From Candidatus Dormiibacterota bacterium (GTDB lineage Bacteria > Chloroflexota > Dormibacteria > Aeolococcales > Bog-877): a stretch of 64,000 bases of DNA. Positions within the stretch are counted from its first letter, which is position 1, and each line of letters opens with the position of its first letter. The stretch is from NCBI GenBank assembly GCA_027313505.1, contig DAHVDN010000010.1:1-64000 (forward strand), written 5' to 3'. Positions 6,560 to 24,583 of the stretch are shown piece after piece. The notes under the pieces are model-generated. The model saw only the letters and a program-made list of their open reading frames with translations, was not told the origin of the DNA and ran no database searches. The position numbers were made by a program, and so were the translations under genes.

Positions 6560-7930
6560 TCAGCCTCCGATTCCTCGGTAGCAGAAGCCCGCCGCCCGTA
6601 GCACCGAAGGCTGGAGCATATTCCGGCCATCGATGAAGATATGCCGCCGCATCGTTGCGGCGAGGTCCTGCCAGGAGATGCTTCGAAACTCATCCCACTC
6701 TGTGACCAGAACCAAGGCGTCCGCTCCCGCCGCAACCGCGGCGGCAGACGGGCGCAGCTCAAGGCCCTGGAGGGGCACAGCCTGGACCACCGGGTCGTAA
6801 CCGCAGACTGTGGCTCCAAGGCTCAGAAGTCGACCCGCTATCTCCAGGCTCGGAGCGTCCCGGAGGTCATCGGTTCCGGGCTTGAAGGCCAGGCCCAAGA
6901 GTCCGATACGACTTCCCTTCAGTATCCGCAGCTCTTCCTGCAGGAGTCTAACCACAATACCCCGTTGTCCCTCGTTTACCTCCATCGTCGACTGCAGCAG
7001 TGGCGTCGGGAGTCCATACTCCCGCGCCGTTTCCACCAGGGCCAAGATGTCCTTGCCCAAGCAGCTGCCGCCCCAACCGATGCCGGCGCTCAGGAAATCG
7101 CGACCGATCCGGTGGTCCAGCCCTATGCCCTCGGCGATGCTTTGGATGTCCGTTCCGAGGGCGGAACTGAGAGATGCGATCTCGTTTATGAAGCTGAGCT
7201 TTGTGGCCAGGAAGGTGTTCGCAGCGTATTTGATCAACTCGGCCGTCGCTACTGAGGTGACCACCAGACCCGGAACGGCGGTGGGCAGTCCAGAACTCGA
7301 TCCAAGCGGCGGGAACGAACCCTCGAGGATGGGCCGATAAAGCTCCCGAAGGACCTCCTCGTCCCGCCCTGAGTTCACGCCAAAGACCAAGCGGTCAGGG
7401 TAGAGGGTGTCTCGCACTGCGAGGCCCTCTCGAAGGAACTCTGGAGCGCTGCTGATGGTGAACAGTGGCGGAGAGGCCGTGCTGGTTCCTTGCGGCTCCG
7501 CCGAAACTGTTAGGCATGTCCTCAACCATTCCGAGGCCATGGCAGCAGTTCCCACGGGGACCGTGCACTTATTGACGATGAGCATAGGCTGGGTGGAGCG
7601 CCTGTCCGCAAGGACTCTCCCGAGGCTGTCGATCGCTGAGCGCAGGAAGGATAGGTCCACCCCTCCGCCAGAGGCGGTCGGGGACGGAACTGCGATCAAG
7701 CACACGTCGGCTTCCGTCGCCGCCGCGAAATCGGTTGTGAAGTGGATGCACGGCCTGGCGCGCTCCAACAACTCTCCGAGTTCTGCTTCAAAGAAGGGCA
7801 GTTGGCCTCCCTTCAGTCGCTCTATCCGGGACTGGTCGACGTCGATTACCGTGGTGTCATGGTCACAGAATGCCAGGCACACCCCGGTCGTGAGTCCGAC
7901 GTGGCCCGAACCGATGACCGCTACTCGCAA
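6560..7930 (-). CDS. ugd: UDP-glucose 6-dehydrogenase
   Basis: 456 residues. It converts UDP-glucose to UDP-glucuronate using two NAD, a precursor for acidic polysaccharides. N-terminal Rossmann motif VIGSGHVGLTTGVCLA, then NKCTVPVGT, the APEFLREG motif, the central-domain TAELIKYAANTFLATKLSFINE helix, the catalytic cysteine in GWGGSCLGKD (Cys290), and the C-terminal domain starting at GLAFKPGTDDLRDAPS. The start is TTG 7930 directly before the Rossmann strand; its ribosome-binding site is weak. It sits at the left edge of the polysaccharide region. GDP-mannose dehydrogenase is a close relative, but the motifs fit Ugd better. Confidence 0.92.
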   Translation of the reverse strand: MRVAVIGSGHVGLTTGVCLAFCDHDTTVIDVDQSRIERLKGGQLPFFEAELGELLERARPCIHFTTDFAAATEADVCLIAVPSPTASGGGVDLSFLRSAIDSLGRVLADRRSTQPMLIVNKCTVPVGTAAMASEWLRTCLTVSAEPQGTSTASPPLFTISSAPEFLREGLAVRDTLYPDRLVFGVNSGRDEEVLRELYRPILEGSFPPLGSSSGLPTAVPGLVVTSVATAELIKYAANTFLATKLSFINEIASLSSALGTDIQSIAEGIGLDHRIGRDFLSAGIGWGGSCLGKDILALVETAREYGLPTPLLQSTMEVNEGQRGIVVRLLQEELRILKGSRIGLLGLAFKPGTDDLRDAPSLEIAGRLLSLGATVCGYDPVVQAVPLQGLELRPSAAAVAAGADALVLVTEWDEFRSISWQDLAATMRRHIFIDGRNMLQPSVLRAAGFCYRGIGG

Positions 7931-8351: not shown

Positions 8352-9212
8352 TCAGACTCCCGCGGAGGGGCTGGTCGAAACCGGCCTTCGGCTGCGCGAC
8401 ATGCCGGGCCGATATTCGCCGAGGATGATCTGGAGCACGCGCCACCCATCTCGGAAGGTCCGGAGGTTGCTGGCGCCATAAAGTCTCCGGTGCTCGAAGC
8501 TAGGCACCTCGGCGACCCTTAAGCCGGAGCGAGCGAGCTGAATGCTGATCATGGTCTCGACCTCGAATCCGTCGCAGGCAAAGGGTATTTCCCCCAGACA
8601 GTCCCGCCAGAAGGCGTTCAGGCCATAGCAGAGGTCGGTGTACTTTGAGCGGTACAGGACGTTGACCATCTGGACCAATGCCCAGTTCCCGATTCGACGG
8701 ACCAACGTGATGTCGGCACTGCCACCGCCGGCCCGAAATCGGCTTCCCTTCGCGAAGTCGGCCCCCTCGACCAGGGCGTTCAGGAATTGGGGAATCTCTG
8801 CCGGGTCGGCGGATCCATCAGCATCGAGCATAACCACCACGTCCCCGGTCGCCGCAGCAAATCCTGTGGAGAGTGCGTTTCCCTTACCGCGGCGAGGATG
8901 GCCCAGAACCCGCGCGCTGGGCAGAAGCTCGCGGACCACCGCAACTGTGTCATCAGTTGACTCCCCATCGACAACGATCACCTCGAAGGTCTCTTGGGGT
9001 AAGCGGGGCAAGACGAAGCGAAGGTTACGCCCCTCGTTCTTGGCCGGAATGACGATGCTGACTCGAGGGTTGGCGAGCCTTCCCCGAACCTCTAGTAACC
9101 GGTCCCCGGTCGGATCTACGGTCAGCTCAGCTGCTGAACCTAAGGACGACGGGTCAGGTATCGTCTCGGGTGAGGCGCCGTCCCCTCCAGTGACCAGGCG
9201 CTCTGTCAGCAC
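8352..9212 (-). CDS. family 2 glycosyltransferase (dolichyl-phosphate-mannose-synthase-like)
   Basis: 286 residues. After about 50 poorly conserved residues comes a GT-A fold: VSIVIPAKNEGRNL, VIVVDGESTDDT, then the metal-binding MLDADGSADP. LCYGLNAFWRD and VETMISIQLARSGLRVAEVP follow, typical of polyprenol-phosphate hexose synthases. There is no C-terminal membrane domain, so the product would be a soluble or peripheral enzyme that charges a polyprenyl phosphate or extends a lipid-linked glycan. The start is GTG 9212. It has the same orientation as ugd. Confidence 0.85.
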   Translation of the reverse strand: MLTERLVTGGDGASPETIPDPSSLGSAAELTVDPTGDRLLEVRGRLANPRVSIVIPAKNEGRNLRFVLPRLPQETFEVIVVDGESTDDTVAVVRELLPSARVLGHPRRGKGNALSTGFAAATGDVVVMLDADGSADPAEIPQFLNALVEGADFAKGSRFRAGGGSADITLVRRIGNWALVQMVNVLYRSKYTDLCYGLNAFWRDCLGEIPFACDGFEVETMISIQLARSGLRVAEVPSFEHRRLYGASNLRTFRDGWRVLQIILGEYRPGMSRSRRPVSTSPSAGV

Positions 9213-10093: not shown

Positions 10094-10990
10094 ATGGCTG
10101 ATCTGGTGAGTCGGGTGATGGGGGTCGCAGCATCGGGAATTCGCGACCCGCTACTTCCGCTGCTGCCTGTGAGGTGGCGCCGTCAGGTTCTCTATGGCTT
10201 CTCCCAGCACAGGTGGGGGGACTTCAGCCACCCGACGACCTTCAGCGAGAAGATCAATTGGAGAATTATTCACGACCGCAGACCTTTGCTCCGCGACACC
10301 TGCGACAAGCTCCGAATGAAGGAGCTGGCCACTCGAGTCGGAGTATCGGTCCCCGAGACCCTTTGGAGCGGCACCGACTTGGGAGAGCTGACTTCGGTCA
10401 GGCTCCCGAGTCGATGGGTCTTGAAGGCCAATCACTCGAGCGGAAGAATCCACTTCGGACAAGGGGAGGTACGAAATCCCAGGCCGCTGATCAAAGCTAC
10501 TCGCGCCTGGCTTAGGCCCTCACTCCCGGCCAGGTTTGGGGAGTGGGCGTACCTGAACGCGCGGCCCCTTTTTGTTCTTGAGGAGGATCTGAGCCGGGGT
10601 GGGCAGGCCCCGGTCGACTACAAGTTCTTCGTATTTGCCGACCAGGTGCCCCTCATCGTCGTGGAGTCGGACCGGTATTCGAATCACGTAAGGAGGTTTT
10701 ACCGACCGCCCTGGGAGCCCCTGGAGGCTCAGCTGGCGCACGTGGGATGGTCGACAGTTCTCAGACCCCTTGCTAAGGTGATGGCCAGCCCACCGACCCT
10801 TGCCGCGATGCTTGATGCCGCGCTCAAGTTGGGTCGTGGGTTTGACTTCATGCGGGTGGATCTCTACAGCGTCGACGATCAGGTATACGCGGGGGAGCTC
10901 ACCCCTTATCCCGGCGGTGGCCTCCCACGGTTCGTGCCTCGGTCCTTGGATGAGGAGTTGGGTTCCTACTGGGAGCTGCCCCCGTTTTAA
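10094..10990 (+). CDS. TupA-type ATP-grasp protein
   Basis: 298 residues matching the TupA-like ATP-grasp family found in capsule, exopolysaccharide and teichuronopeptide loci. Typical parts: HPTTFSEKINWRIIHDRRPLL, DKLRMKELATRVG, WVLKANHSSG (nucleotide-binding strand), FVLEEDL, DYKFFVFADQVPLI and GFDFMRVDLY ... GELTPYPGGG near the C-terminus, the acidic metal site. TupA itself is thought to join amino acids to polysaccharides; other members are annotated as glycosyltransferases. Here it may decorate uronic acids made by Ugd with an amino acid. That role is inference. Confidence 0.8.
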   Translation: MADLVSRVMGVAASGIRDPLLPLLPVRWRRQVLYGFSQHRWGDFSHPTTFSEKINWRIIHDRRPLLRDTCDKLRMKELATRVGVSVPETLWSGTDLGELTSVRLPSRWVLKANHSSGRIHFGQGEVRNPRPLIKATRAWLRPSLPARFGEWAYLNARPLFVLEEDLSRGGQAPVDYKFFVFADQVPLIVVESDRYSNHVRRFYRPPWEPLEAQLAHVGWSTVLRPLAKVMASPPTLAAMLDAALKLGRGFDFMRVDLYSVDDQVYAGELTPYPGGGLPRFVPRSLDEELGSYWELPPF

Positions 10991-12193: not shown

Positions 12194-12525
12194 CCGCCAC
12201 CACCCGAGGATCAGCGGCGAGCGCGGCTTGCGGCGTGGGACGACACCGGTAGACCCCGGCTGCCCCGCTCTTCGCTACTTCGCGGAGCGCAGCTCCTTTG
12301 GGCGGTGAGCCGGAGATTGAGTGGTCACCGCCACGTCTGAGCCCATCTGACCGCCACAGCGCCGAAGCCATTCTTGTAAGCGCTGCTAGGTCTGCTGTCC
12401 TGCGCGCTTGCTCTGGCGACCTGGACGCGGAACTGCTTATACGAGCCGGTCACCACCTGATTACGAGTTGGCTACGACGGCTCACTCAGCCGGTAGGAGC
12501 GATAGATTCCGAGGGCGGGCTCCCG
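12194..12525. other. spacer with 8-bp hairpin before the riboswitch
   Basis: 332 bases with no supported gene. GGCGGTGA (12301-12308) pairs perfectly with TCACCGCC (12325-12332), and a second GC-rich fold lies at about 12275-12295. These may end transcription from the methyltransferase. The promoter of the riboswitch transcript should lie in the second half. Confidence 0.4.
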
Positions 12526-12612
12526 GAACGGGCAAACCCATCGCGAGGTGGCGACGCAAAGTCACGGGCCTCCAAGCCGAACGGAAGGGAGGTAGCCGGA
12601 CCGCCGAAGGCG
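12526..12612 (+). promoter_or_regulatory. cyclic-di-GMP-I (GEMM-I) riboswitch
   Basis: Conserved GEMM-I blocks appear in order: GGGCAAACC (12530s-12539), stem CCATC/GGTGG closed by a GCGA GNRA tetraloop (12538-12551), GACGCAAAG (12553-12561), the tetraloop-receptor-like GGGCCTCCAAGCC (12566-12578), and GGTAGCCGGACCGCC (12591-12605). This is the standard aptamer that binds c-di-GMP. It lies 20 bases before a strong AAAGGAGG ribosome-binding site (12631-12638) and 42 bases before the start of the exported glycoside hydrolase. No clear T-run terminator follows, so control at translation initiation is plausible. ON/OFF sense is not readable. Confidence 0.92.
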
Positions 12613-12646
12613 AGTCGGATCTGAGCCAGCAAAGGAGGTTCAGACC

Positions 12647-14041
12647 GTGCAATTGTTCGGGGCACCCAGCCTACTCAGGGTCAGGCTTCTTGCGTTGGCG
12701 GTGGCAGCCGGAATACCGGCGGTGCTCCTGGTCGTCCCGGGCGCTGCAGTGGGGTCGGTTCAGTCGACGCGGGTTGCCCCTCCACATGGGTCGGGAGGAC
12801 AGATATCGGAGGGCCACGGCCCGATCGGGAAATTAAAGTCAGTCTCGGTGACCGCGTCTCCCCCTGGCGCTGGTCAGTTTCACGCGAGGTCCAAGTTCGT
12901 ACCATCGGTGGCGGCCACGGCCTCCCCCAACGGCGCCCCCAGCGCTCCTGGCCCAAGAGCCACCCCGACACCGACGCCGTCGGCCCCTCCAGCCGGCCCG
13001 CCCAGCAGTGGTATCGTCGGGCGCTCGGGGACGGAACTCGTGGTCGCCGGTCAGCCCTACCACTTCACCGGAATAAACATCTACATGGCCGCGAGTGGCG
13101 GGACTCCTTCGAGTTGCGGGGGGGAGCTCTACCCCAACGTTGGAGTGCCTCTGGCGCAGATGCCCAATGGCATAGTCTTTCGCTTCTGGGCGTTTCAGGA
13201 CTTCTTCGTCTCCAACGGGGCGTTCAACTGGAGCAATTTCGACTTGGTCCTTCAGATGGCGGCCGAACACCAAGATCGGGTCATCCCAGTGCTCGCCAAC
13301 CAATACAACTATTGCGACGGTCCGGCAAAGGACCTGGCTTGGTACCAGTCCGGGTACCAGACGACCGTGTCGTCTGGGGATCTGGTTTCGTATCGTCAGT
13401 ATGTCGCAGATGTGGTAACCCGTTACGCCGGAAACCCTACCGTCGCCATGTGGCAGCTGGTCAATGAGGGGCAGGCCGTCAATGACAATGGCAGCTGTGA
13501 CGAATCGGCAGCTCTGAGTGCGCTTCTCAGCTTCTCAAACGACGTCGGTGGTCTCATCCACAGCCTTGACCCACACCATCTGGTGAGCCTGGGAACCCTG
13601 GCCGGTTACTCAGGCAGTGGTCTCCAGTGGTGTGGCGCCGCCAACGGCGACTACCAGACGTTGATGGCCTCCCCGGGCAATGACGTCTGCGACTTCCACG
13701 ACTACGGGTATCCCAGCTCACCCATGGGGAATCCCCAAACCCCTGACCTGGCCACCGCGATTCAGATGTGCCACGCGGACGGCAAGCCGATCATGGTCGC
13801 CGAGACCGGGATCTTCGCGAGCGCCTCAAATCAGCTGGCGACACGCGCCGCCCAATTCCAAGCCAAGTTCTATTCACAGTTCCAGGCCGGGGTAGTGGGG
13901 GAGCTCATGTGGGACTGGGCCAACATTCCCCAATATGTTTCCCCGGTAGCCGACCCCGACTACGGCATCTTCCCAGCGTCTTCCTTCGACGGCTACCAGG
14001 CGGACCCGTCGCTCAGCCTACTTGGGCGAGTTTACTGGTAG
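12647..14041 (+). CDS. secreted glycoside hydrolase, clan A (GH5-like), riboswitch-controlled
   Basis: 464 residues. A signal peptide (basic start, hydrophobic 11-36), a disordered stretch and Pro/Thr/Ala-rich linker (about 85-122), then a TIM-barrel hydrolase domain (about 123-464). Likely acid/base Glu274 in MWQLVNEG and nucleophile Glu386 in IMVAETG; DFHDYG supplies the usual His/Tyr strand. GH5-type endoglucanases and mannanases share this arrangement, although the standard NEP is NEG here. The start is GTG 12647 with AAAGGAGG 8 bases upstream. A GEMM-I riboswitch in the leader ties expression to c-di-GMP. The next gene is a paralogue. The polymer substrate is unknown; the locus' own exopolysaccharide is a good guess. 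Confidence 0.87.
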   Translation: MQLFGAPSLLRVRLLALAVAAGIPAVLLVVPGAAVGSVQSTRVAPPHGSGGQISEGHGPIGKLKSVSVTASPPGAGQFHARSKFVPSVAATASPNGAPSAPGPRATPTPTPSAPPAGPPSSGIVGRSGTELVVAGQPYHFTGINIYMAASGGTPSSCGGELYPNVGVPLAQMPNGIVFRFWAFQDFFVSNGAFNWSNFDLVLQMAAEHQDRVIPVLANQYNYCDGPAKDLAWYQSGYQTTVSSGDLVSYRQYVADVVTRYAGNPTVAMWQLVNEGQAVNDNGSCDESAALSALLSFSNDVGGLIHSLDPHHLVSLGTLAGYSGSGLQWCGAANGDYQTLMASPGNDVCDFHDYGYPSSPMGNPQTPDLATAIQMCHADGKPIMVAETGIFASASNQLATRAAQFQAKFYSQFQAGVVGELMWDWANIPQYVSPVADPDYGIFPASSFDGYQADPSLSLLGRVYW

Positions 14042-14332
14042 CTTCCCAGGTCAAGGTCCGGGGCGGTAATTCTTGCATCTGGGAAAAGGGCTCGTTGCAG
14101 CTTGAGCTAAGCCCGGCACCGGACAACCAAAGTCCGGATGGGAGATCGCGAGTGGATGGATAGCCAGGCGGTTACCCCGCTACCCTGAAGTTGTCATGAC
14201 CCTTGTCGCGCTCTCCCCTGGTTCCCGCTGGCCCCCTCCGGGTGCTCCCAAGTCGATCACCCGACCTTTGCTGAGGCAGCCCGCGCAGCTGCTCCCGCCA
14301 GCGCCGACAATTGTTGCGACGGCGGGCCATCT
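14042..14332. other. spacer between paralogous hydrolase genes
   Basis: 291 bases, no gene supported. A hairpin CCGGAC-N7-GTCCGG lies at about 14121-14139 without a T-run. Unlike the upstream hydrolase, no GEMM-I conserved blocks are present. Confidence 0.4.
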
Positions 14333-15436
14333 TTGGGCCCCAGGTTGGATGCTGTTTTGAGAGTGGCGAAGGGTATCGCCATCACCGTCACTGCGGCCGC
14401 GACTTTGACCTTGGCGGGGTGCGCTGGGAGTACCCCTGACCCCGTGCCAACCCCCTTTGTCCAGGGGGGCTACGTCAAGGCCGCAGGAACCCAGCTGACC
14501 TTGGGCGGCGCCCCATTCCGGTTCGAGGGCCTGGACATCTTCATGGCCGCGAGCAACGGGCGCTGCGGCGGGACAGTCAACCTGCCCCAGGTCCTGCGGG
14601 AGATCGGACCGTCTCAAACCGTCTTCCGGGTGTGGTTGTTTCAGTCCTTCGCCGTCTCTCACGGTCGGTTCAACTGGAAGCCATTCGACCGGTTGCTCTT
14701 GGTCGCGGCCCAGCATGGGGAAAGGGTCATCGTGACCTTGGCCAACCAGTGGAACTACTGTGATGGGCCAGAGAAGACATTGAGCTGGTGGCAATCTGGC
14801 TATCGGACTCAGGTTCTGGCGGGCGACCTGGTTCCCTACCGCAAGTGGGTGGCTGACGTGGTGGCCAGGTACCGGAACGACCCGACGGTGGCGATGTGGC
14901 AGCTTGTCAACGAGGGATCGGCCGTGACCGCGCCTGGTGTCTGCCATGAAGGGGCGGCGCTGGCGGCGATGACCGCGTTCGCGACGGATGTCGGGGGGCT
15001 AGTCCATTCGCTTGATCCCCATCATCTGGTGAGCCTGGGCGACATCCCGGGTTACTGTGGCGACTCTGGACTCGACTACCAGACCCTGAATGCTGTGGCG
15101 GCGATCAATGTGTGTGACTACCACGATTACGGTGCGCCTGGTAGCCCGCTGGGTGAGGCTGGTCCCAACGGGCTGCTCTCTGCGATCTCCGCCTGCCACG
15201 CCGACGGCAAGCCCATCATGGTGGCCGAAACCGGGATACTGGTTACCGATCCTCAACAGCTCCCCCTGAGGGCGGCCGAGTTTCGAGCCAAGTTCACAGC
15301 CCAGTTCGCAGCCGGTGTTGTGGGCGAGCTCATGTGGTCGTGGGTAAACGGGAGCACTTATGTGCTCCCCGCCACCCCGGAGGACTATGGGATTGGCCCT
15401 GGCGACCCCTCCCTCCGCGTTCTCGGAAAGTACTGA
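14333..15436 (+). CDS. lipoprotein glycoside hydrolase, clan A (GH5-like), paralogue
   Basis: Up to 367 residues. N-terminal hydrophobic segment ending in a lipobox LTLAGC (Cys30 from TTG 14333), so it is probably membrane-anchored on the outer face. The catalytic domain parallels the upstream hydrolase nearly motif for motif: FMAASNG, VFRVWLFQSF, NQWNYCDGPEKTL, MWQLVNEG (acid/base Glu194), SLDPHHLVSLG, CDYHDYG, GKPIMVAETG (nucleophile Glu299), GVVGELMWSW. It lacks the long linker. The start is uncertain: TTG 14333, TTG 14345 or GTG 14363, all with weak ribosome-binding sites. The pair arose by tandem duplication and then diverged in localisation. Confidence 0.85.
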   Translation: MGPRLDAVLRVAKGIAITVTAAATLTLAGCAGSTPDPVPTPFVQGGYVKAAGTQLTLGGAPFRFEGLDIFMAASNGRCGGTVNLPQVLREIGPSQTVFRVWLFQSFAVSHGRFNWKPFDRLLLVAAQHGERVIVTLANQWNYCDGPEKTLSWWQSGYRTQVLAGDLVPYRKWVADVVARYRNDPTVAMWQLVNEGSAVTAPGVCHEGAALAAMTAFATDVGGLVHSLDPHHLVSLGDIPGYCGDSGLDYQTLNAVAAINVCDYHDYGAPGSPLGEAGPNGLLSAISACHADGKPIMVAETGILVTDPQQLPLRAAEFRAKFTAQFAAGVVGELMWSWVNGSTYVLPATPEDYGIGPGDPSLRVLGKY

Positions 15437-15697
15437 GCCGTCCATAGAGGCGCGGGCGGGCGAATGATCCACGCCGGCCGGCCTATTGGCGACCCCTCGG
15501 AAGGCGCTCGCGCCCGCTCGGTCCCAGGCCGTCTTGGAATGGTCTTGCCTTCGCCGTGGCCCCCGATTGACAACCGGGTTGCCAGTAGGTCTTCGCTAGC
15601 ACGGCTCGAGGTCGACCGCGCCTAACCAACCTAGCCCAGAAGGCTCAGAGCACGATGGGGGCAATCGCCAGCTCTCGAGAGCGCTCCACGGAACGTC

Positions 15698-16642
15698 TCA
15701 ACGGCCTGGCCGAAAGCCGGTGACGAAAGCCACCGCCGCTCCTAAAGTGGCGGCGATCAGGCCCCCCAGCACCGCCAGTACACGCCCGCCAGCGGCCTGG
15801 CTACGCCCCGAAACAGCCAATCGCAGGTAGGTCCAGGTGCTGGTGGTGACCAGCCTTCTCAAATACGAATATTCATCACCGAGCTCTCGGGCCCCGGAGT
15901 TGAGTCGGGCCATCGTCACCTTGGATGACCCTTCGGAATAGCAGCGTCTCAGAAAGAAGGCCACGGTTGATCGCTCTGGGCCGACCGTGTGGTCGACCAC
16001 GGCATCCACCACAAGCACCCATTTCTGCCCCGGGTAGGCATGGCCAACCCTGAGGCAAAAATCGGTGTCCTCCGGGCTGGATCGATCGCCGACCTTACCG
16101 AAGTCGATCCTGAACCCACCTACTCGACTGAAGGCCTGATGCCTCACCGCCATGTTTTCTGACCAGACGTTGCGCACCGTGGTCAAAGGGGTGTCGGCCG
16201 CTTGGAACGTGGCCCCCACCACCCAGAGGAACTCGGCCGGAAACCATGCTGGGCGACCATTGATCCAGTCCGGGGCGACGAAGCCACCCGTCCCGATGAC
16301 GGCGGGGTCCGCGAAGGGAGCGATGAGAGTCTCCAGCCAATCTCGACGCGGACGCACGTCGCTGTCCAGGAAGGCCAGGAGCGGTGTGACTGCCAGCTCG
16401 GCGCCGGAATTCCGTGTCCCTGAAGCACCGTTGTCGTAGCGATTAGCCGTGGCCTCAATCGATGGGATCTCCGCCTGCACCCGCCGGAGAAGACTCGGAT
16501 TGTGGTCGACGGCCACCACAATCTGCCGGGGAGGAGTCGTTTGGCGCTGGATCAGGCCCACAGCGGTTACCAAAGACGTCCATCGTTCCTCGGTGTGAGC
16601 GGGGATGATCACTGTGACTTCCTGGCTAGGGACCGCCTGCAC
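15698..16642 (-). CDS. family 2 glycosyltransferase with C-terminal membrane segment
   Basis: 314 residues. GT-A motifs: VTVIIPAHTEERWTSL, IVVAVDHNPS, then GTRNSGAELA and the metal-binding FLDSDVRPRRDWL; SPEDTDFCLRVG supplies the ED catalytic-base region. A single hydrophobic segment at about 285-308 anchors it to the membrane. The start is GTG 16642. It is a stand-alone leftward gene inside the polysaccharide region. Donor and acceptor sugars are unknown. Confidence 0.83.
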   Translation of the reverse strand: MQAVPSQEVTVIIPAHTEERWTSLVTAVGLIQRQTTPPRQIVVAVDHNPSLLRRVQAEIPSIEATANRYDNGASGTRNSGAELAVTPLLAFLDSDVRPRRDWLETLIAPFADPAVIGTGGFVAPDWINGRPAWFPAEFLWVVGATFQAADTPLTTVRNVWSENMAVRHQAFSRVGGFRIDFGKVGDRSSPEDTDFCLRVGHAYPGQKWVLVVDAVVDHTVGPERSTVAFFLRRCYSEGSSKVTMARLNSGARELGDEYSYLRRLVTTSTWTYLRLAVSGRSQAAGGRVLAVLGGLIAATLGAAVAFVTGFRPGR

Positions 16643-17424: not shown

Positions 17425-18756
17425 ATGGCTTCGAGTCCGTTAGGTCTTCACTTTCGGCCGCTGGCCCTGTTGAAACGGGCCCGGGGGGATTCGCTGCTGC
17501 GCAACAGCCTCTTCATGATGGCCACGACCGTAGTCAACTCAGCCTTCGGATACCTCTTTTGGCTCGCCGCGGCCCGGCTCTTTTCTCCTGCCGCCGTGGG
17601 CCTCGCGTCGGCGATAATCTCCGTTAGCACCATCATCTCGCTGTGCGCCCAGCTGGGCGTCGCCACTGTCCTCATCCAATCCCTTCCCGGCCACAAGGAT
17701 CCAACTGATTGGTGGCTGACCTTGTGGACGGTGACCCTCATGGGCGCTGCCACCACGTTCCTGCTCAGTTGCGCCGCATTACTCGCGCTGCCCTTAATCT
17801 CGCGCGATTTCGCCTCCCTGTCTCATCCCGTCTACTGGTTGTTGTTTGGGGCGGGAACGGTGGCCGGCACCGTTGGCTCGATCCTGGACACTGCATTTGT
17901 GGCAGAGAGGGTGTCTGGGAATATGCTGGGACGCAACACCGTGGTGTCCGGTGGCAAGGCCATAGTGCTTCTACCCATAGCCTGGTTGGGATCCGCGGGG
18001 GTCCTGGCCCTCCTGGGTGCGTGGTCTCTAGCCGCGGTCCTCGGCATAGCCGTCGGTGGGCTTCTGGTGGTGAGGCGAGTTGGGACATGGCACCGACCGC
18101 GACCTCGGGCATCGATCGATCACGCCCGGACACTGGTCCGAAGAATAGTGGGCAACCAGTTCGTGGGACTTGGGGGGGCGCTGCCGCCGTTGCTCCTCCC
18201 GCTTCTAGTTACCGCGCGACTTTCGGCCCGGGACAACGCCTATTTCTACACCACCTGGATGATGTGCGGGATTCTGCTTGTGATCTCCCCGGCGATCGCT
18301 CGGTCGCTTTTTGCTGAAGGGGTTCACTCACCCGGGGGGCTCCGGCGCAGCACCCGCTCAGCTCTCGCGATTCTTTGCTTCCTTTTGGTGCCCGGGATGG
18401 TGGTATTCCTGTTGGTCGGGGGGATACTGCTGTCGACCTTTGGGCACGAGTACGCACAGCATTCGATACTTCTGTTGCGTCTGATTGTTCTATCCGCCGT
18501 TCCCGATGCGATCACCAACCTTTACGTTTCAGTTCTGATGGTCGAGCGCCGTGTCGCCAGGGCCGCGTATCTCAACGTCGGCATGGGCGTCGGCACGATT
18601 GTCGTGTCGTGGGTTCTCCTTCCCTCCGTCGGTGTCGCAGCGGTGGGATGGGCATGGCTCGCGATGCAGCTTGCCGGATGTCTCGTGGTGGCGATCGATT
18701 TCGTGAGCCGGCACGGTGGCCCGAAAACTCCCATCGTGGCCAGTTGGGGAGGATGA
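17425..18756 (+). CDS. Wzx-like polysaccharide flippase (MOP superfamily)
   Basis: 443 residues with about 12 hydrophobic segments. It begins with the helix-entry NSLFMMATTVVNSAFGYLFWLAAAR and LFSPAAVGLASAIISVSTI, typical of Wzx/RfbX oligosaccharide flippases, which move lipid-linked repeat units across the membrane. The C-terminal half has another set of helices around 230-430. It ends 4 bases before the GT4 gene, so they form one operon. It is the best evidence that this region assembles a lipid-linked polymer. Confidence 0.82.
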   Translation: MASSPLGLHFRPLALLKRARGDSLLRNSLFMMATTVVNSAFGYLFWLAAARLFSPAAVGLASAIISVSTIISLCAQLGVATVLIQSLPGHKDPTDWWLTLWTVTLMGAATTFLLSCAALLALPLISRDFASLSHPVYWLLFGAGTVAGTVGSILDTAFVAERVSGNMLGRNTVVSGGKAIVLLPIAWLGSAGVLALLGAWSLAAVLGIAVGGLLVVRRVGTWHRPRPRASIDHARTLVRRIVGNQFVGLGGALPPLLLPLLVTARLSARDNAYFYTTWMMCGILLVISPAIARSLFAEGVHSPGGLRRSTRSALAILCFLLVPGMVVFLLVGGILLSTFGHEYAQHSILLLRLIVLSAVPDAITNLYVSVLMVERRVARAAYLNVGMGVGTIVVSWVLLPSVGVAAVGWAWLAMQLAGCLVVAIDFVSRHGGPKTPIVASWGG

Positions 18757-18760
18757 CACG

Positions 18761-20032
18761 ATGAGGATCCTGCAAGCCACTGACTGTTACCCCCCGCCCA
18801 TCGTCGGGGGCAGGGACCTTCAGGTGCAGATGCTGTCCCATGAGTTGGCGGCTCGGGGGCACGAAGTCGATGTGGTGGCGCTGGCCGGCCCCAGCGGTCC
18901 CAGCCTCACCATGGATGGTGTGGTGCCCGTCCATCGTGTGGCGGGGTGGAGTCGGGTTCTCAGCCGCCTGTACGCGGATCCGGAGAAGCCCTTTCACCCG
19001 ACGATGGCTGATCCCGGGGTGGTGCGCTCGCTCCGCAGGCTGCTCCGAGAACGCCGGCCAGATGTCATCCATGCGCACTCTTGGATGCTCTATTCGTTCC
19101 TGCCGCTGCTACCCTGGCCGGGAACCAAGGTTGTGGTCGCCATCCACGAATATGGCTTCGTGTGCCCCAAGAACACCTTCGCATATCGAGGCGGAGTGTG
19201 TTCCGGACCGGCATATCGGAAGTGCGTGGCCTGCGCTGCTGAGCAGTACGGCTTTGGGCGTTCCCTGGCTCTCACGACCGGCCTGACCTTGATGAAACCG
19301 TGGGTTCGAAGAGTCGACCGCTACGTCGCCAACAGCCGGGCGACGGCGCGCGCATCAGCGGGGTTGCCCGGCCCGGGTGGCGAACCGATTGCGATCATTC
19401 CGCCCTTTGTGCCCGATGCCGCCTTCTCTTTGCGCTCTGAAGGTCGTCCGAGCTTCGTGCCCCAAGAGGGTGACTACCTGATGTTCGCTGGTGGTCTTGG
19501 TCCCTATAAGGGGGTTGACGTGCTGGTGGACGCGTGGCTGGGCCTGGAGTCGAAGGTCCCGCTGGTTCTTGCGGGGGTGCGGCGACCAGACACCCCATCG
19601 GAGTTCCCTCCTGGGGTGATTGTGGCCGAGAACGTGCCCCACGAGGAGGTGCTGAGGGCTTGGAGTCATTGCTTGATGGGGGTCGTTCCATCTCGCTGGC
19701 CCGAGCCGTTTGGAACCGTCGCTCTAGAGGCAATGGCCGCGGGGGTGCCCGTGGTGGCTTCCCGGGTGGGGGGGCTGGCCGACCTGGTCGTGGACGAGGT
19801 GACCGGGGTCTTGGTCGAGCCCGGTGATGTCCGAGCTCTGAGGGAGGCATTAAGGGTTCTGCTATCGGATCCTGCGCTCAGGCGACGGCTGGGGGATGCC
19901 GGGCGGGACCGGGCGACCAGGTACTCGGCCAGAGCCGTCGTCGGTGCCTGGGAGGCGGTGTTCAGCGAAGTGGTTGGAGGGCCACCCGGGTCGTCCCCGG
20001 CCTCGAAGCTGCTTGGGGGCGCTGGAACGTGA
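18761..20032 (+). CDS. family 4 glycosyltransferase
   Basis: 423 residues, GT-B fold. N-terminal domain: MRILQATDCYPPPIVGGRDLQ, HELAARGHEVDVVAL, DVIHAHSWMLYSFLP. C-terminal nucleotide-sugar domain: LMFAGGLGPYKGVDVLVDAW, then the signature PEPFGTVALEAMAAGVPVVASRVGGLADLV with the EX7E pair, and a closing ALRVLLSDPALRRRLGDAGR. The start is ATG 18761 with GGGAGGA 7 bases upstream, 4 bases after the flippase stop. It probably adds a sugar to the lipid-linked repeat unit on the cytoplasmic side. Confidence 0.9.
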   Translation: MRILQATDCYPPPIVGGRDLQVQMLSHELAARGHEVDVVALAGPSGPSLTMDGVVPVHRVAGWSRVLSRLYADPEKPFHPTMADPGVVRSLRRLLRERRPDVIHAHSWMLYSFLPLLPWPGTKVVVAIHEYGFVCPKNTFAYRGGVCSGPAYRKCVACAAEQYGFGRSLALTTGLTLMKPWVRRVDRYVANSRATARASAGLPGPGGEPIAIIPPFVPDAAFSLRSEGRPSFVPQEGDYLMFAGGLGPYKGVDVLVDAWLGLESKVPLVLAGVRRPDTPSEFPPGVIVAENVPHEEVLRAWSHCLMGVVPSRWPEPFGTVALEAMAAGVPVVASRVGGLADLVVDEVTGVLVEPGDVRALREALRVLLSDPALRRRLGDAGRDRATRYSARAVVGAWEAVFSEVVGGPPGSSPASKLLGGAGT

Positions 20033-20165
20033 CCCGGTCGGGAAGGATGCGGTGTCGAGGCGGGACCTTCCATCGAGTTGCCCCAGGTTGCAGGCCGGAG
20101 TCCCCTTCGGAGGCGATCAAGTCATACCTAGAGTCGAGGCCGGTGCCATCAGGGCCAGCCCACAA

Positions 20166-21197
20166 ATGACTTCAAAGGTCGCTGTGATTACCCCCACCTA
20201 TCGGCACCAGCGGCTGCTGCAAGCCTGTATCTCCAGCGTCATTGGACAGACCTTTGAAGACTGGGAGATGGTGGTTGTCGATGATGGGTCGGACGACGGC
20301 ACCCCCGAGGTAGCGGAGTCGTTCAGTGATCCTCGCATCTCGGTGGTGAGACTGCCTCACCTCGGGCTCGGGGCGCTCGGACGATCCTACGCGGAAGCTC
20401 TTTCAAGAACCCGGGCGCCGCTGGTGGCGGTGTTGGAGGGGGATGATATGTGGCCACCTTCCAAGCTGGCGATTCAGAGCCAGCTGATGGAGCTGAATCC
20501 GATGGCCGTGCTGAGTTACGGCCCTGCCCGGCTCATCGATGACTGGGGCCTCACCTACGCGGGCCATCGTCACGCGCCACGCGGAGCTGTCTCTCTCAAC
20601 CGGCCCCTGGGTTCCATCATCCCGGCGCTGATCAAGACGGACTTTCTGGTCACCTCCACGGTGATGATCCGACGCCCGGCGCTCGATCTGATCGGGGGTT
20701 TCATCCAGCCGCCTGGAGTTCCCTACGTCGATCTCCCGACATGGCTCCGTCTGGCGACAGTGGGCCCGTTTGCTCGCAGCGACCAGGTTCTTGGTTGCTG
20801 GCGGCGTCACGCCCAACAGTGGACGATACAAAACGTCTTCGGTGTTGGCCCAGACCGTCGGAGCTACCTTTCGGAAGCTGCGGAGCGCGCTCGGCAGCTA
20901 TTTGGGCCGAACGAGTGGGAAGGGCTCAAAGAGATTATTGCGGCGGATCCCGCCCGCCAGCTTCAGGAGTCTGCGATCTCGCGGGGTCGTCTGGCCCTCA
21001 TCGAGGGGAAGTGGGCCGACGCGGCCGCTATCTGGAGAGGACTATTGGGGTCCGGAGAGCTCCGGACCAGGTCGGTGGCTGTCCTAGGTCTGGCATGCTC
21101 CGTGGCCAGATCGGATTTGGAGTGGGCGATCCGCGCCGCGGGCCGGCACTCCTATCCCTCCAGAAGACATCTTCGTTCCCGAACAAGGCCGGAGTAG
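20166..21197 (+). CDS. family 2 glycosyltransferase
   Basis: 343 residues from ATG 20166. GT-A core: VAVITPTYRHQRLLQACI, MVVVDDGSDDGTPEV, then VAVLEGDDMWPPSKLA (metal-binding acidic motif). The C-terminal 120 residues (about 220-343) are helical with no clear family. The frame is open for 90 codons upstream, overlapping the GT4 gene, but those residues look non-coding; the ATG directly before the first beta strand is the better start, although its ribosome-binding site is weak. Third gene of the flippase-GT4-GT2 run. Confidence 0.82.
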   Translation: MTSKVAVITPTYRHQRLLQACISSVIGQTFEDWEMVVVDDGSDDGTPEVAESFSDPRISVVRLPHLGLGALGRSYAEALSRTRAPLVAVLEGDDMWPPSKLAIQSQLMELNPMAVLSYGPARLIDDWGLTYAGHRHAPRGAVSLNRPLGSIIPALIKTDFLVTSTVMIRRPALDLIGGFIQPPGVPYVDLPTWLRLATVGPFARSDQVLGCWRRHAQQWTIQNVFGVGPDRRSYLSEAAERARQLFGPNEWEGLKEIIAADPARQLQESAISRGRLALIEGKWADAAAIWRGLLGSGELRTRSVAVLGLACSVARSDLEWAIRAAGRHSYPSRRHLRSRTRPE

Positions 21198-22087: not shown

Positions 22088-24583
22088 CTAGCCGGCCCTG
22101 ATGGCGGGTACGCATAACCCGTCCGCGATTGCGGTTACGTCATAGATGCGCAGGGGGCCCGCGAAATACACCAGGCTGGTGCAGCTGGTGGCTCCAAACT
22201 TAGCCCAGTAGCTGCTTGGAAGGGGATGGGCGTGATGACTGCCACCGGGTTCGTAGGGACTGAAGTAATAGCTGGGGTTGATAGGTGTGCCCAAACTCAT
22301 GCGAGTGTCCACGAAGATGTAGTCGACTCCGGCAGATCGGATGTCGTGAACCACCGCCTGACTCATCGTGCTTGAGAAGAAGATGGGAAAGGCAAGGTTT
22401 TCAGAGATCGGATTTTGCTCACCGAAGCTCCCCAGGACTGGCGCGTCCAATGCATCGGTCGCGAAAGTCCGGCCCGGGCCCAAGTTGGTCCGCGCCCAGG
22501 CAGCGGCCGCGAACACGTCAGGTTGCACGGCGGATGGGTACCCCACCGGGTTGGCTGGCTCGGGCAGCAGCTTGTTGTACGGCGTACCAACCGTGACTCC
22601 ACCCAGGAAGACCACGGTGAGCACCGCCGTAACGGCCAGTCCTGACCGCCGCTTGCCAGGCACCAGTCTGAAGAGCCACCGGAGCCATCGTGTTTGATGT
22701 TGGCGTGCTGCAGGACCACTCGCCATTGCGGCAACCATCCCGAGAATACAACCTAGACCAGCGTACAGGTACTCCGACGACCTCCCTGAGATCGCCACCC
22801 CGTCTGGAGCCAGCCGAGGGATGAGGCTCAACGGGTAAAGGGCGGCGACCCCCGCCGCCACAAGAAGCGCTGGTCGAGAGGAGTGCTTGGTCCAGGCGTA
22901 GTAAACGCCGATCGGCAGTAGCAACAGCAGTATCGCCACTCCACCAAACCCCGCCAATCGCTCCCACAGCGGAGCCGCGCTGCCGGCGCTGCTGTACAGG
23001 GTTCTGGCAGCGAGATGTCCCTGAACCAAGGCCACCGTTTGGGATATGCCAGGGTAGATGTTCTCGCTCCAGAGATAGGCGATTGCGGGACGAGCGATGG
23101 TCGCCATCCAACCGATGGGCACCACAAGCGAAAGTGCAGCCATCCACCCCAGCCTTCGAACGGCGGGTTGCGTTCCGCGCACAATCCTCTCCGCCACCCA
23201 CCAAGCAACCAGGACCGCTGCCAGGGCGAAACCAGCCACATGGTGGGTTACCGTGACAGCAACAACCCCGACCGCTCCGACAAGTAGCGGTCCACGACCT
23301 GGCTGTCGACGGGTCGTGGCAATCCACCAGACCACGAAGGCGGCAAGCGGGAGGGCAAGGTTCTCGTACGAGAAGTAGGCACTCCAGAACAAGAACATGG
23401 GGTTACTCGCATAGACCAGGGTGGCTCCGGCGGCCGCGCGTGAAGAACCGGTGACCTGCTCCGCCACGTAGAAGAAGGAGGCGGTGAACACCAGTCTGGC
23501 GACCCCCACCAGGAGGAGCCCGGCCACGAAGGGGCTGAGGCCGGTCATGTCCGCGATAGCCGATGTGACAGTCTCCAGCCCTGGGTAAACCGAGGACGCG
23601 GCTAGTAATGGGTTGAAGGTGAAGAGGTGGTGGGTCCTGAGGATGTCCTGGAGGGTGCGCAGGTGAATGAACTCGTCGATGAAGCTGAACCCGGTCGGTG
23701 CGGCAGCGACCTTTACCAGGTACATCGCGCTGCCCAGCATCAACGCCAGGAGGAGCCTTTCGGATCGACCGCACGATCCCGACAGGCTGCGATGGGCGGT
23801 GGGCACAAAGATCCCCAGCAGGCCCAGCCAGAACAAAAACGACAGCTTGCCATCTCCCTGACGGCTGGCTGCATCCGCGATCGCCACCAGCCCAAGCCCG
23901 ACCGAGGAGCTGAGGCAGACTGCAGCTGTCCATAAGAGCTGTCCGCCGCTGGGGGAGACAAGCTGCTTCTCCGACGAACCCCTGGGTCCGCCAGCCACCG
24001 CAATGGGGTCGTCTCCCTGGTCGCCCAGCGAGGACAGGAGAGCCTCGGCTTTTTGCAAGGCGGGCGCAGCCTCCGACACCAGCGGAGGTACCTGGGTTTC
24101 GCCGGGGAGCTGGTGCGCTTCGGCCGCCTCCGGCCGTCGCGATTCGGGGTCACCAACTTCAGTTGTTAGGTCCGACGCAGGCAGTTGGCCGGCCTCGGAA
24201 CCCAGAATCGGTGAACAGTTGGGAAGCTCTCCCGCTCCCTGCCCCGGACCTTCCTCGTAAGGACGCGGCTGGGCGGTGCCAATCTCCTTAGCTTCAGGGC
24301 TGGGGGATTCCCCGGCGCCACCGTCACCCCGCGGGCGACCGGCCTTTCCTGGACGAGTGCGGGGGGGCCCCTGCGCTCGCCGGCCAGAGCCTTGGGCCCT
24401 GGTGCGATCCTTCGTCCGGGGCCGAGTGGGTTCATCTCCGACCCCCGGATGATCTGGTTGCTTAGAGTCCGCTGGCCGGCCAAGGGGATCGGTGTCCATC
24501 GAACCTTTATTGCCGGAATCGAGCGCGTCATCATTCCCTGCCGGTTGAACCCGGCGGCGGCCGCTTCGGCGCGTCCCGGCCAC
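22088..24583 (-). CDS. large multi-spanning membrane protein (GT-C-like)
   Basis: Up to 831 residues. The first ~200 are charged and Gly/Pro/Glu/Arg-rich (probably disordered); then come about 13 hydrophobic segments between 215 and 665, and a C-terminal extracytoplasmic domain of about 165 residues. FIDEFIHLRTLQDILRTHHLF in the first loop is reminiscent of the acidic loop of GT-C glycosyltransferases that use polyprenyl-phosphate sugars. GTG 24583 is a weak start, so the disordered part may be shorter (Met29 is an option). It could be a glycosyltransferase or a Wzy-type polymerase, which the locus otherwise lacks. Confidence 0.7.
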   Translation of the reverse strand: MAGTRRSGRRRVQPAGNDDALDSGNKGSMDTDPLGRPADSKQPDHPGVGDEPTRPRTKDRTRAQGSGRRAQGPPRTRPGKAGRPRGDGGAGESPSPEAKEIGTAQPRPYEEGPGQGAGELPNCSPILGSEAGQLPASDLTTEVGDPESRRPEAAEAHQLPGETQVPPLVSEAAPALQKAEALLSSLGDQGDDPIAVAGGPRGSSEKQLVSPSGGQLLWTAAVCLSSSVGLGLVAIADAASRQGDGKLSFLFWLGLLGIFVPTAHRSLSGSCGRSERLLLALMLGSAMYLVKVAAAPTGFSFIDEFIHLRTLQDILRTHHLFTFNPLLAASSVYPGLETVTSAIADMTGLSPFVAGLLLVGVARLVFTASFFYVAEQVTGSSRAAAGATLVYASNPMFLFWSAYFSYENLALPLAAFVVWWIATTRRQPGRGPLLVGAVGVVAVTVTHHVAGFALAAVLVAWWVAERIVRGTQPAVRRLGWMAALSLVVPIGWMATIARPAIAYLWSENIYPGISQTVALVQGHLAARTLYSSAGSAAPLWERLAGFGGVAILLLLLPIGVYYAWTKHSSRPALLVAAGVAALYPLSLIPRLAPDGVAISGRSSEYLYAGLGCILGMVAAMASGPAARQHQTRWLRWLFRLVPGKRRSGLAVTAVLTVVFLGGVTVGTPYNKLLPEPANPVGYPSAVQPDVFAAAAWARTNLGPGRTFATDALDAPVLGSFGEQNPISENLAFPIFFSSTMSQAVVHDIRSAGVDYIFVDTRMSLGTPINPSYYFSPYEPGGSHHAHPLPSSYWAKFGATSCTSLVYFAGPLRIYDVTAIADGLCVPAIRAG

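Follow-up and report, generated by a model that had tools for sequence, protein, structure and literature searches.

A c-di-GMP-I riboswitch aptamer ahead of a predicted secreted GH5 glycoside hydrolase in an exopolysaccharide region of a Dormibacterota genome

The signal c-di-GMP is known mainly for turning polysaccharide synthesis on, often via PilZ-type proteins. Class-I c-di-GMP riboswitches are known in both directions (PMC6366702). Vc1, upstream of gbpA in Vibrio cholerae, is an ON switch, reported to respond positively to c-di-GMP (PMC4744006), and in C. difficile the functional class-I switches are OFF and some c-di-GMP riboswitches are reported to be non-functional (PMC6366702). In Vc2, the ligand is contacted by G20, A47 and C92 (PMC4744006). 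Exopolysaccharide (EPS) loci carry glycan hydrolases, such as CcsZ (GH5) and BcsZ (GH8) (PMC7710045). The open-access papers searched yielded no report of a c-di-GMP riboswitch together with a glycoside hydrolase or an exopolysaccharide locus, an absence that is not proof. We know of no riboswitch on CcsZ or BcsZ.

The two elements are found side by side in the window, the whole 64-kb stretch of DNA analyzed here. A full-length match to the c-di-GMP-I (GEMM-I) aptamer model RF01051 lies at 12521-12608 on the + strand, with 54.5 bits (gathering score, 35 bits) and an E-value, computed for the whole window, of 6.7e-8; nothing else in the Rfam scan of the 64 kb reaches a gathering score. It is the sole RF01051 match in the 3.18-Mb, 92%-complete assembly, and 14 control genomes gave 0 matches. 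The sister model RF03167 (c-di-GMP-I-GGC) does best on a shorter stretch, where it scores 55.1 bits, slightly below its cut-off of 59. The ligand contacts of Vc2 correspond in our mapping to G12531, A12558 and C12604/C12605, all of which are present; P2 is closed by a GNRA tetraloop (GCGA, 12543-12546), and P3 is extended. The proposal of a GEMM-I aptamer at this position, made in a sequence-only reading of the same DNA, is thus borne out by the model score and the intact contacts.

Conservation of the fold was examined in an alignment of 30 related aptamers. In the aptamer structure 98.2% of the cells are paired, compared with 31-52% in slid controls. Eight pairs are changed on both sides, which was equalled in 2 of 500 shuffles, and the 43 doubly changed cells were reached in none of the 500. 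The P2 and P3 helices of this aptamer class are kept by covariation across the 30 relatives. The window aptamer itself has one compensated pair, U12562-A12600, which is C-G in most relatives, and two non-standard outer pairs, 12537-12552 and 12560-12602; its score is the lowest listed for an aptamer in the class (Dormibacterota). We infer that it binds c-di-GMP in vivo.

The gene behind the aptamer begins with a GTG at 12647, 38 nt past the aptamer and preceded by AAAGGAGG. Its product, P0001, has a signal-peptide-like N-terminus and a Pro/Thr-rich linker. On its own P0001 has no Pfam match, PF00150 being missed; 12 of the 15 family members match PF00150. A phmmer search of the PDB with P0001 finds GH5 beta-mannanases at 1e-8, and a profile built from the 15 sequences finds GH5 mannanases with E down to 6.5e-28. 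The AlphaFold2 model of P0001 is a TIM barrel (pLDDT 79, pTM 0.86), whose best fold matches in the PDB are again GH5 mannanases (E 4e-16, TM about 0.6). Both catalytic glutamates, the acid/base within an NE pair and the nucleophile, are invariant in the 15 homologues, and R, H, Y and W residues are conserved too. By profile and modeled fold, P0001 belongs to GH5 and has a predicted beta-mannanase-like activity; together with the signal-peptide-like start, this agrees with the earlier claim of a secreted glycoside hydrolase behind the aptamer.

A tandem GH5 paralogue, overlooked in the sequence-only reading, follows downstream (Table 1). Because it carries a lipobox, the pair appears to consist of one secreted and one lipid-anchored enzyme. 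The stretch ahead of the paralogue, 14041-14333, has no Rfam match and hence no riboswitch of its own. An FMN-riboswitch-like string between the GH5 genes, AAAGTCCGGATGGGAGA (about 14130-14147), was dropped because Rfam gives it no support, also when the threshold is relaxed. Two antisense ORFs, 14180-14947 and 14999-15472, were rejected as genes: neither matches a family, and it is the other strand that carries the real GH5 paralogue.

EPS genes flank the GH5 gene on both sides. The region holds in total a dehydrogenase, four GT2 and one GT4-type glycosyltransferases, a TupA-like ATP-grasp protein, a methyltransferase and a flippase. The dehydrogenase, GT2s, ATP-grasp protein, flippase and GT4 confirm the description of the region as an exopolysaccharide locus. 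At its edge, an 831-aa ORF (22088-24583, -) has no Pfam or NCBIfam match. The genome encodes many c-di-GMP enzymes, with 10 hits to GGDEF domains, of which one is split in two, and 9 to EAL domains, of which one is a fragment. PilZ and MshEN receptors have no match in this 92%-complete genome, so that among the receptors tested the riboswitch is the only one for c-di-GMP.

Table 1. Features of the leader, the GH5 genes and the surrounding EPS region in the window
Feature	Position	Strand	Remarks
UDP-glucose/GDP-mannose dehydrogenase	6560..7930	-	PF03721, PF00984, PF03720
GT2 glycosyltransferase	8352..9212	-	PF00535
TupA-like ATP-grasp	10094..10990	+	PF14305
Possible -10 element TAGATT	12503..12508	+	Most relatives have TAnnnT at a similar distance, 8-20 nt ahead of their aptamer, by eye
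Predicted P1 of the bound form	12518..12616	+	GGCUCCC 12518-12524 with GGCGAGUC 12609-12616, one bulged C
Predicted anti-aptamer hairpin	12599..12616	+	GACCGCC-GAA-GGCG(A)GUC; cannot coexist with P1 or the ligand pocket
Predicted RBS hairpin	12617..12646	+	Arm 12617-12627 with 12637-12646, 10 bp; partly covers Shine-Dalgarno AGGAGG 12633-12638
Secreted GH5 beta-mannanase-like glycoside hydrolase (predicted)	12647..14041	+	464 aa; acid/base E274, nucleophile E386
Tandem GH5 paralogue, probable lipoprotein	14333..15436	+	LAGC lipobox; 58% identity to first GH5
GT2 glycosyltransferase	15698..16642	-	PF00535; 60% to ortholog upstream of aptamer in G008
Polysaccharide flippase (Wzx-like)	17425..18756	+	PF13440, PF01943
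GT4-type glycosyltransferase	18716..20032	+	PF00534; counterpart beside GH5 in L063, 54-58%
GT2 glycosyltransferase	19896..21197	+	PF00535

The aptamer occurs in 16 of 110 genomes of the class. By reading of the downstream genes, its target in seven of the 16 is a glycanase or lyase that is secreted: GH5 in G000, G030 and G042, GH26 in G008 and G054, GHL15 in G048, and a pectate-lyase-like protein in G049. The remaining targets are sortase-like, CAP, TadE, subtilase or Ig-like proteins, and three genomes (G025, G026, G027) have six or seven aptamer copies each. G008, of the same family as the window genome, has an orthologous EPS locus (GT2 60%, dehydrogenase 61%, TupA 45-60%, and a weak flippase match) where the aptamer is kept but stands before GH26 instead of GH5. 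In G030, whose GH5 is 41% identical to P0001, and in G042, the aptamer-GH5 unit lies near exosortase EpsH, and in G048 the aptamer-GHL15 unit adjoins three GT4s and a Wzy-type gene. The G030 locus (L041:7770-12088) has the riboswitch-GH5 gene divergent from a GH113 gene and a second GH5, beside exosortase EpsH and a GT2. Strong GH5 homologues are found in nine genomes of the class, only two of which, G000 and G030, have the aptamer; GH5 homologues without it being frequent, the pairing of aptamer and GH5 is not obligatory. The loci L042 (G104) and L057 (G025) have identical aptamers and near-identical targets in different families, which is likely due to contamination or misbinning of one MAG.

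A second lineage repeats the arrangement. In a MAG labeled Acidimicrobiaceae (palsa_509; locus L063), the aptamer, the sole copy in its genome, occurs with a GH5 of 71% identity across the aligned domain; next to the two lies the same GT4 as in the window. The claimed link of aptamer, hydrolase and EPS locus is therefore conserved, with the GH family swapped at the G008 locus and with the same GH5 and GT4 in the second lineage, and comparison with the relatives indicates that the link is more than positional. The aptamer is found in 44 genomes of a 397-genome sample of the order of this MAG. Targets there were read by eye at about 20 of 30 loci, those with a usable downstream ORF; they are mostly CAP-domain proteins and type IV pilins, a few being glycanase- or lyase-like. 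Given this, and seven of 16 in the class of the window, glycanase targets are a recurrent minority in that order and common in this class. Two loci of the order, L110 and L122, have c-di-GMP-I aptamers before secreted proteins that by eye are GH39-like and GH18-like.

How the aptamer might act on the gene was studied by folding of the leader. From the position of the possible -10 element (Table 1), transcripts would start near 12514-12516; a generic sigma-70 scan gave no hit. In unconstrained ensembles of transcripts from 12515, the 3' strand of the aptamer is taken up by the anti-aptamer hairpin (pair probability about 0.6-0.98). The predicted P1 (7 bp, one bulge) is seen only when the aptamer is imposed on the transcript from 12515 to 12646 and is absent from longer folds. 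To impose the aptamer takes about 7-10 kcal/mol, the value varying with the ends chosen for the transcript, and tight binding of c-di-GMP could cover this cost. The core pairs of the RBS hairpin have probabilities of about 1.0 in the free and aptamer-imposed ensembles alike, and compared with shuffles its stability is only suggestive (z -1.5, p 0.085). The hairpin is identical in equilibrium folds with and without the aptamer, where no ON/OFF switching is visible; as it persists in either ensemble, these folds give no sign of a coupling between aptamer and RBS. The terminator scan found no intrinsic terminator in the leader. A long-range extension of P1 was considered as the switch and rejected, being not above chance (p 0.57) and also undetected in other glycanase-type leaders. 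As modeled, the RBS hairpin and the anti-aptamer hairpin point to translational control of GH5, which we consider likely.

Expression platforms are more readily recognized elsewhere in the class. In the sortase/pilus/CAP group, GUCGGCUCC in the leader forms a helix with GGGGCCGAC; the GGGGCC of the latter doubles in several members as the 5' arm of the hairpin at the RBS, and the long-range P1 extension is well formed in the riboswitches of G022, G025, G027 and G029. The same pairing is common to L036, L046, L047, L050, L053-L055 and L057-L060 (G022, G025, G027; up to seven riboswitches), where the targets are sortase-like, TadE and other surface proteins and the RBS hairpin encloses the start codon. 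Because it takes up this hairpin arm, the pairing suggests a translational ON switch in this group. In G073 (L044) and G078 (L043), a strong intrinsic terminator shares the 3' strand of the aptamer, which suggests transcriptional ON control, as the aptamer would break the terminator. The glycanase-type leaders are without the long-range pairing, so these precedents give ON a slight edge only, and for the window switch that direction is weakly favored.

An OFF switch, by which c-di-GMP lowers the hydrolase so that polymer builds up in the biofilm state, to be cut once the signal drops (dispersal), is a serious contender that we rate somewhat short of even. It is the direction of the functional class-I switches of C. 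difficile (PMC6366702), and by hand reading GAGCC 12623-12627, in the arm of the RBS hairpin, has a potential partner in GGCUC 12518-12522, a strand that P1 would remove in the bound form. However, the probability of this pairing is essentially zero in all ensembles, and the readable platforms just described suggest ON. It might be asked whether the RNA switches at all, since the score of 54.5 bits ranks last among those listed for the class, with mismatches at 12537-12552 and 12560-12602, the equilibrium folds do not switch, and c-di-GMP riboswitches that do not function have precedent in C. difficile (PMC6366702). The intact contact bases, the compensatory pair change and the persistence of the link in G008, G030 and L063 make a decayed or non-switching remnant quite improbable. 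As to the ligand, 3',3'-cGAMP might take the place of c-di-GMP. Where A replaces G20, GEMM-I RNAs can favor cGAMP (GEMM-Ib), but the window has G there, at 12531, which leaves very little room for cGAMP. The A is confined to G049 (L040), G073 (L044) and G078 (L043), where a cGAMP preference is possible.

The substrate could also lie outside the cell's own products. The riboswitch may be real and the GH5 a nutritional mannanase for environmental mannan of plant, fungal or algal origin, its placement among EPS genes being incidental; the closest solved relatives are indeed fungal, plant and bacterial endo-beta-1,4-mannanases, and GH5 homologues elsewhere in the class occur without the aptamer. 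We regard this as unlikely, because the orthologous EPS locus of G008 keeps the aptamer with a different enzyme, the GH5 of L063 still adjoins the same GT4, and family scans of the window show no sugar-uptake genes adjoining GH5. The swap of the hydrolase under a conserved locus and the retention of the GT4 with GH5 favor the locus' own polymer over environmental mannan, and we take that polymer to be the moderately probable substrate. GH5, GH26 and GH113 are all families that contain beta-mannanases, and as the enzymes of the window, of G008 and of the G030 locus (its GH113) fall in these families, there is a hint that the polymer contains beta-mannose.

Taken as a whole, the explanation we are inclined to accept, with modest confidence, is of a working riboswitch that sets the level of GH5, and of a GH5 that acts on the polysaccharide of the locus. 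The GH5 mRNA would have as its 5' leader a c-di-GMP-I riboswitch, in which ligand binding would lead to formation of the aptamer and P1 and to loss of the competing hairpin 12599-12616. This change would alter RBS access in the hairpin 12617-12646 and so set the level of the secreted enzyme, which would trim, detach or tailor the polysaccharide made by the surrounding genes, tying the biofilm signal to glycan turnover. The recurrence of the arrangement in relatives, with other enzymes in place, suggests that c-di-GMP governs how the cell trims its own coat. Should the functional link hold, c-di-GMP has polymer cutting among its outputs, under control by an RNA. More tentatively, and in our view doubtfully, the riboswitch may in this uncultured soil lineage be the chief receptor through which c-di-GMP acts on the surface glycan, presiding over an interchangeable "slot" for a mannanase-type glycanase (GH5 or GH26), in which the RNA and the locus are kept and the enzyme is swapped; were this true, the c-di-GMP circuit would bear on polymer cutting, not on polymer synthesis.

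Compared with known GEMM-I riboswitches (RF01051, RF03167; e.g., Vc2 of V. cholerae), the window RNA shares the model match, the ligand contacts, the P2/P3 architecture with the GNRA loop and the position in a 5' leader; it differs in its host lineage and target, both new, and its platform seems, from the predicted folds, to be an RBS hairpin. A functional parallel, Vc1/gbpA (PMC4744006), likewise has a class-I aptamer before a secreted protein acting on extracellular glycan, but GbpA is a chitin-binding colonization factor, whereas the window aptamer has as its target a hydrolase encoded among EPS genes. With CcsZ and BcsZ the window enzyme has in common that a glycanase is encoded with exopolysaccharide machinery, and with CcsZ also the GH5 family; unlike those enzymes, which belong to cellulose synthase loci, it resembles beta-mannanases. 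It shares the TIM barrel and the catalytic glutamate pair with the GH5 endo-beta-1,4-mannanases of known structure (PDB 4qp0, 1qno, 3ziz, 3wfl), from which it differs in being only about 20% identical and in forming a distinct clade from soil bacteria. In a genome without recognizable PilZ or MshEN, the only class-I riboswitch thus sits on a glycan-cutting enzyme inside a glycan locus. The aptamer class is already known; within the open-access papers searched, the placing of a c-di-GMP riboswitch on an EPS-locus glycanase, with the enzyme exchanged under a conserved switch, appears to be new.
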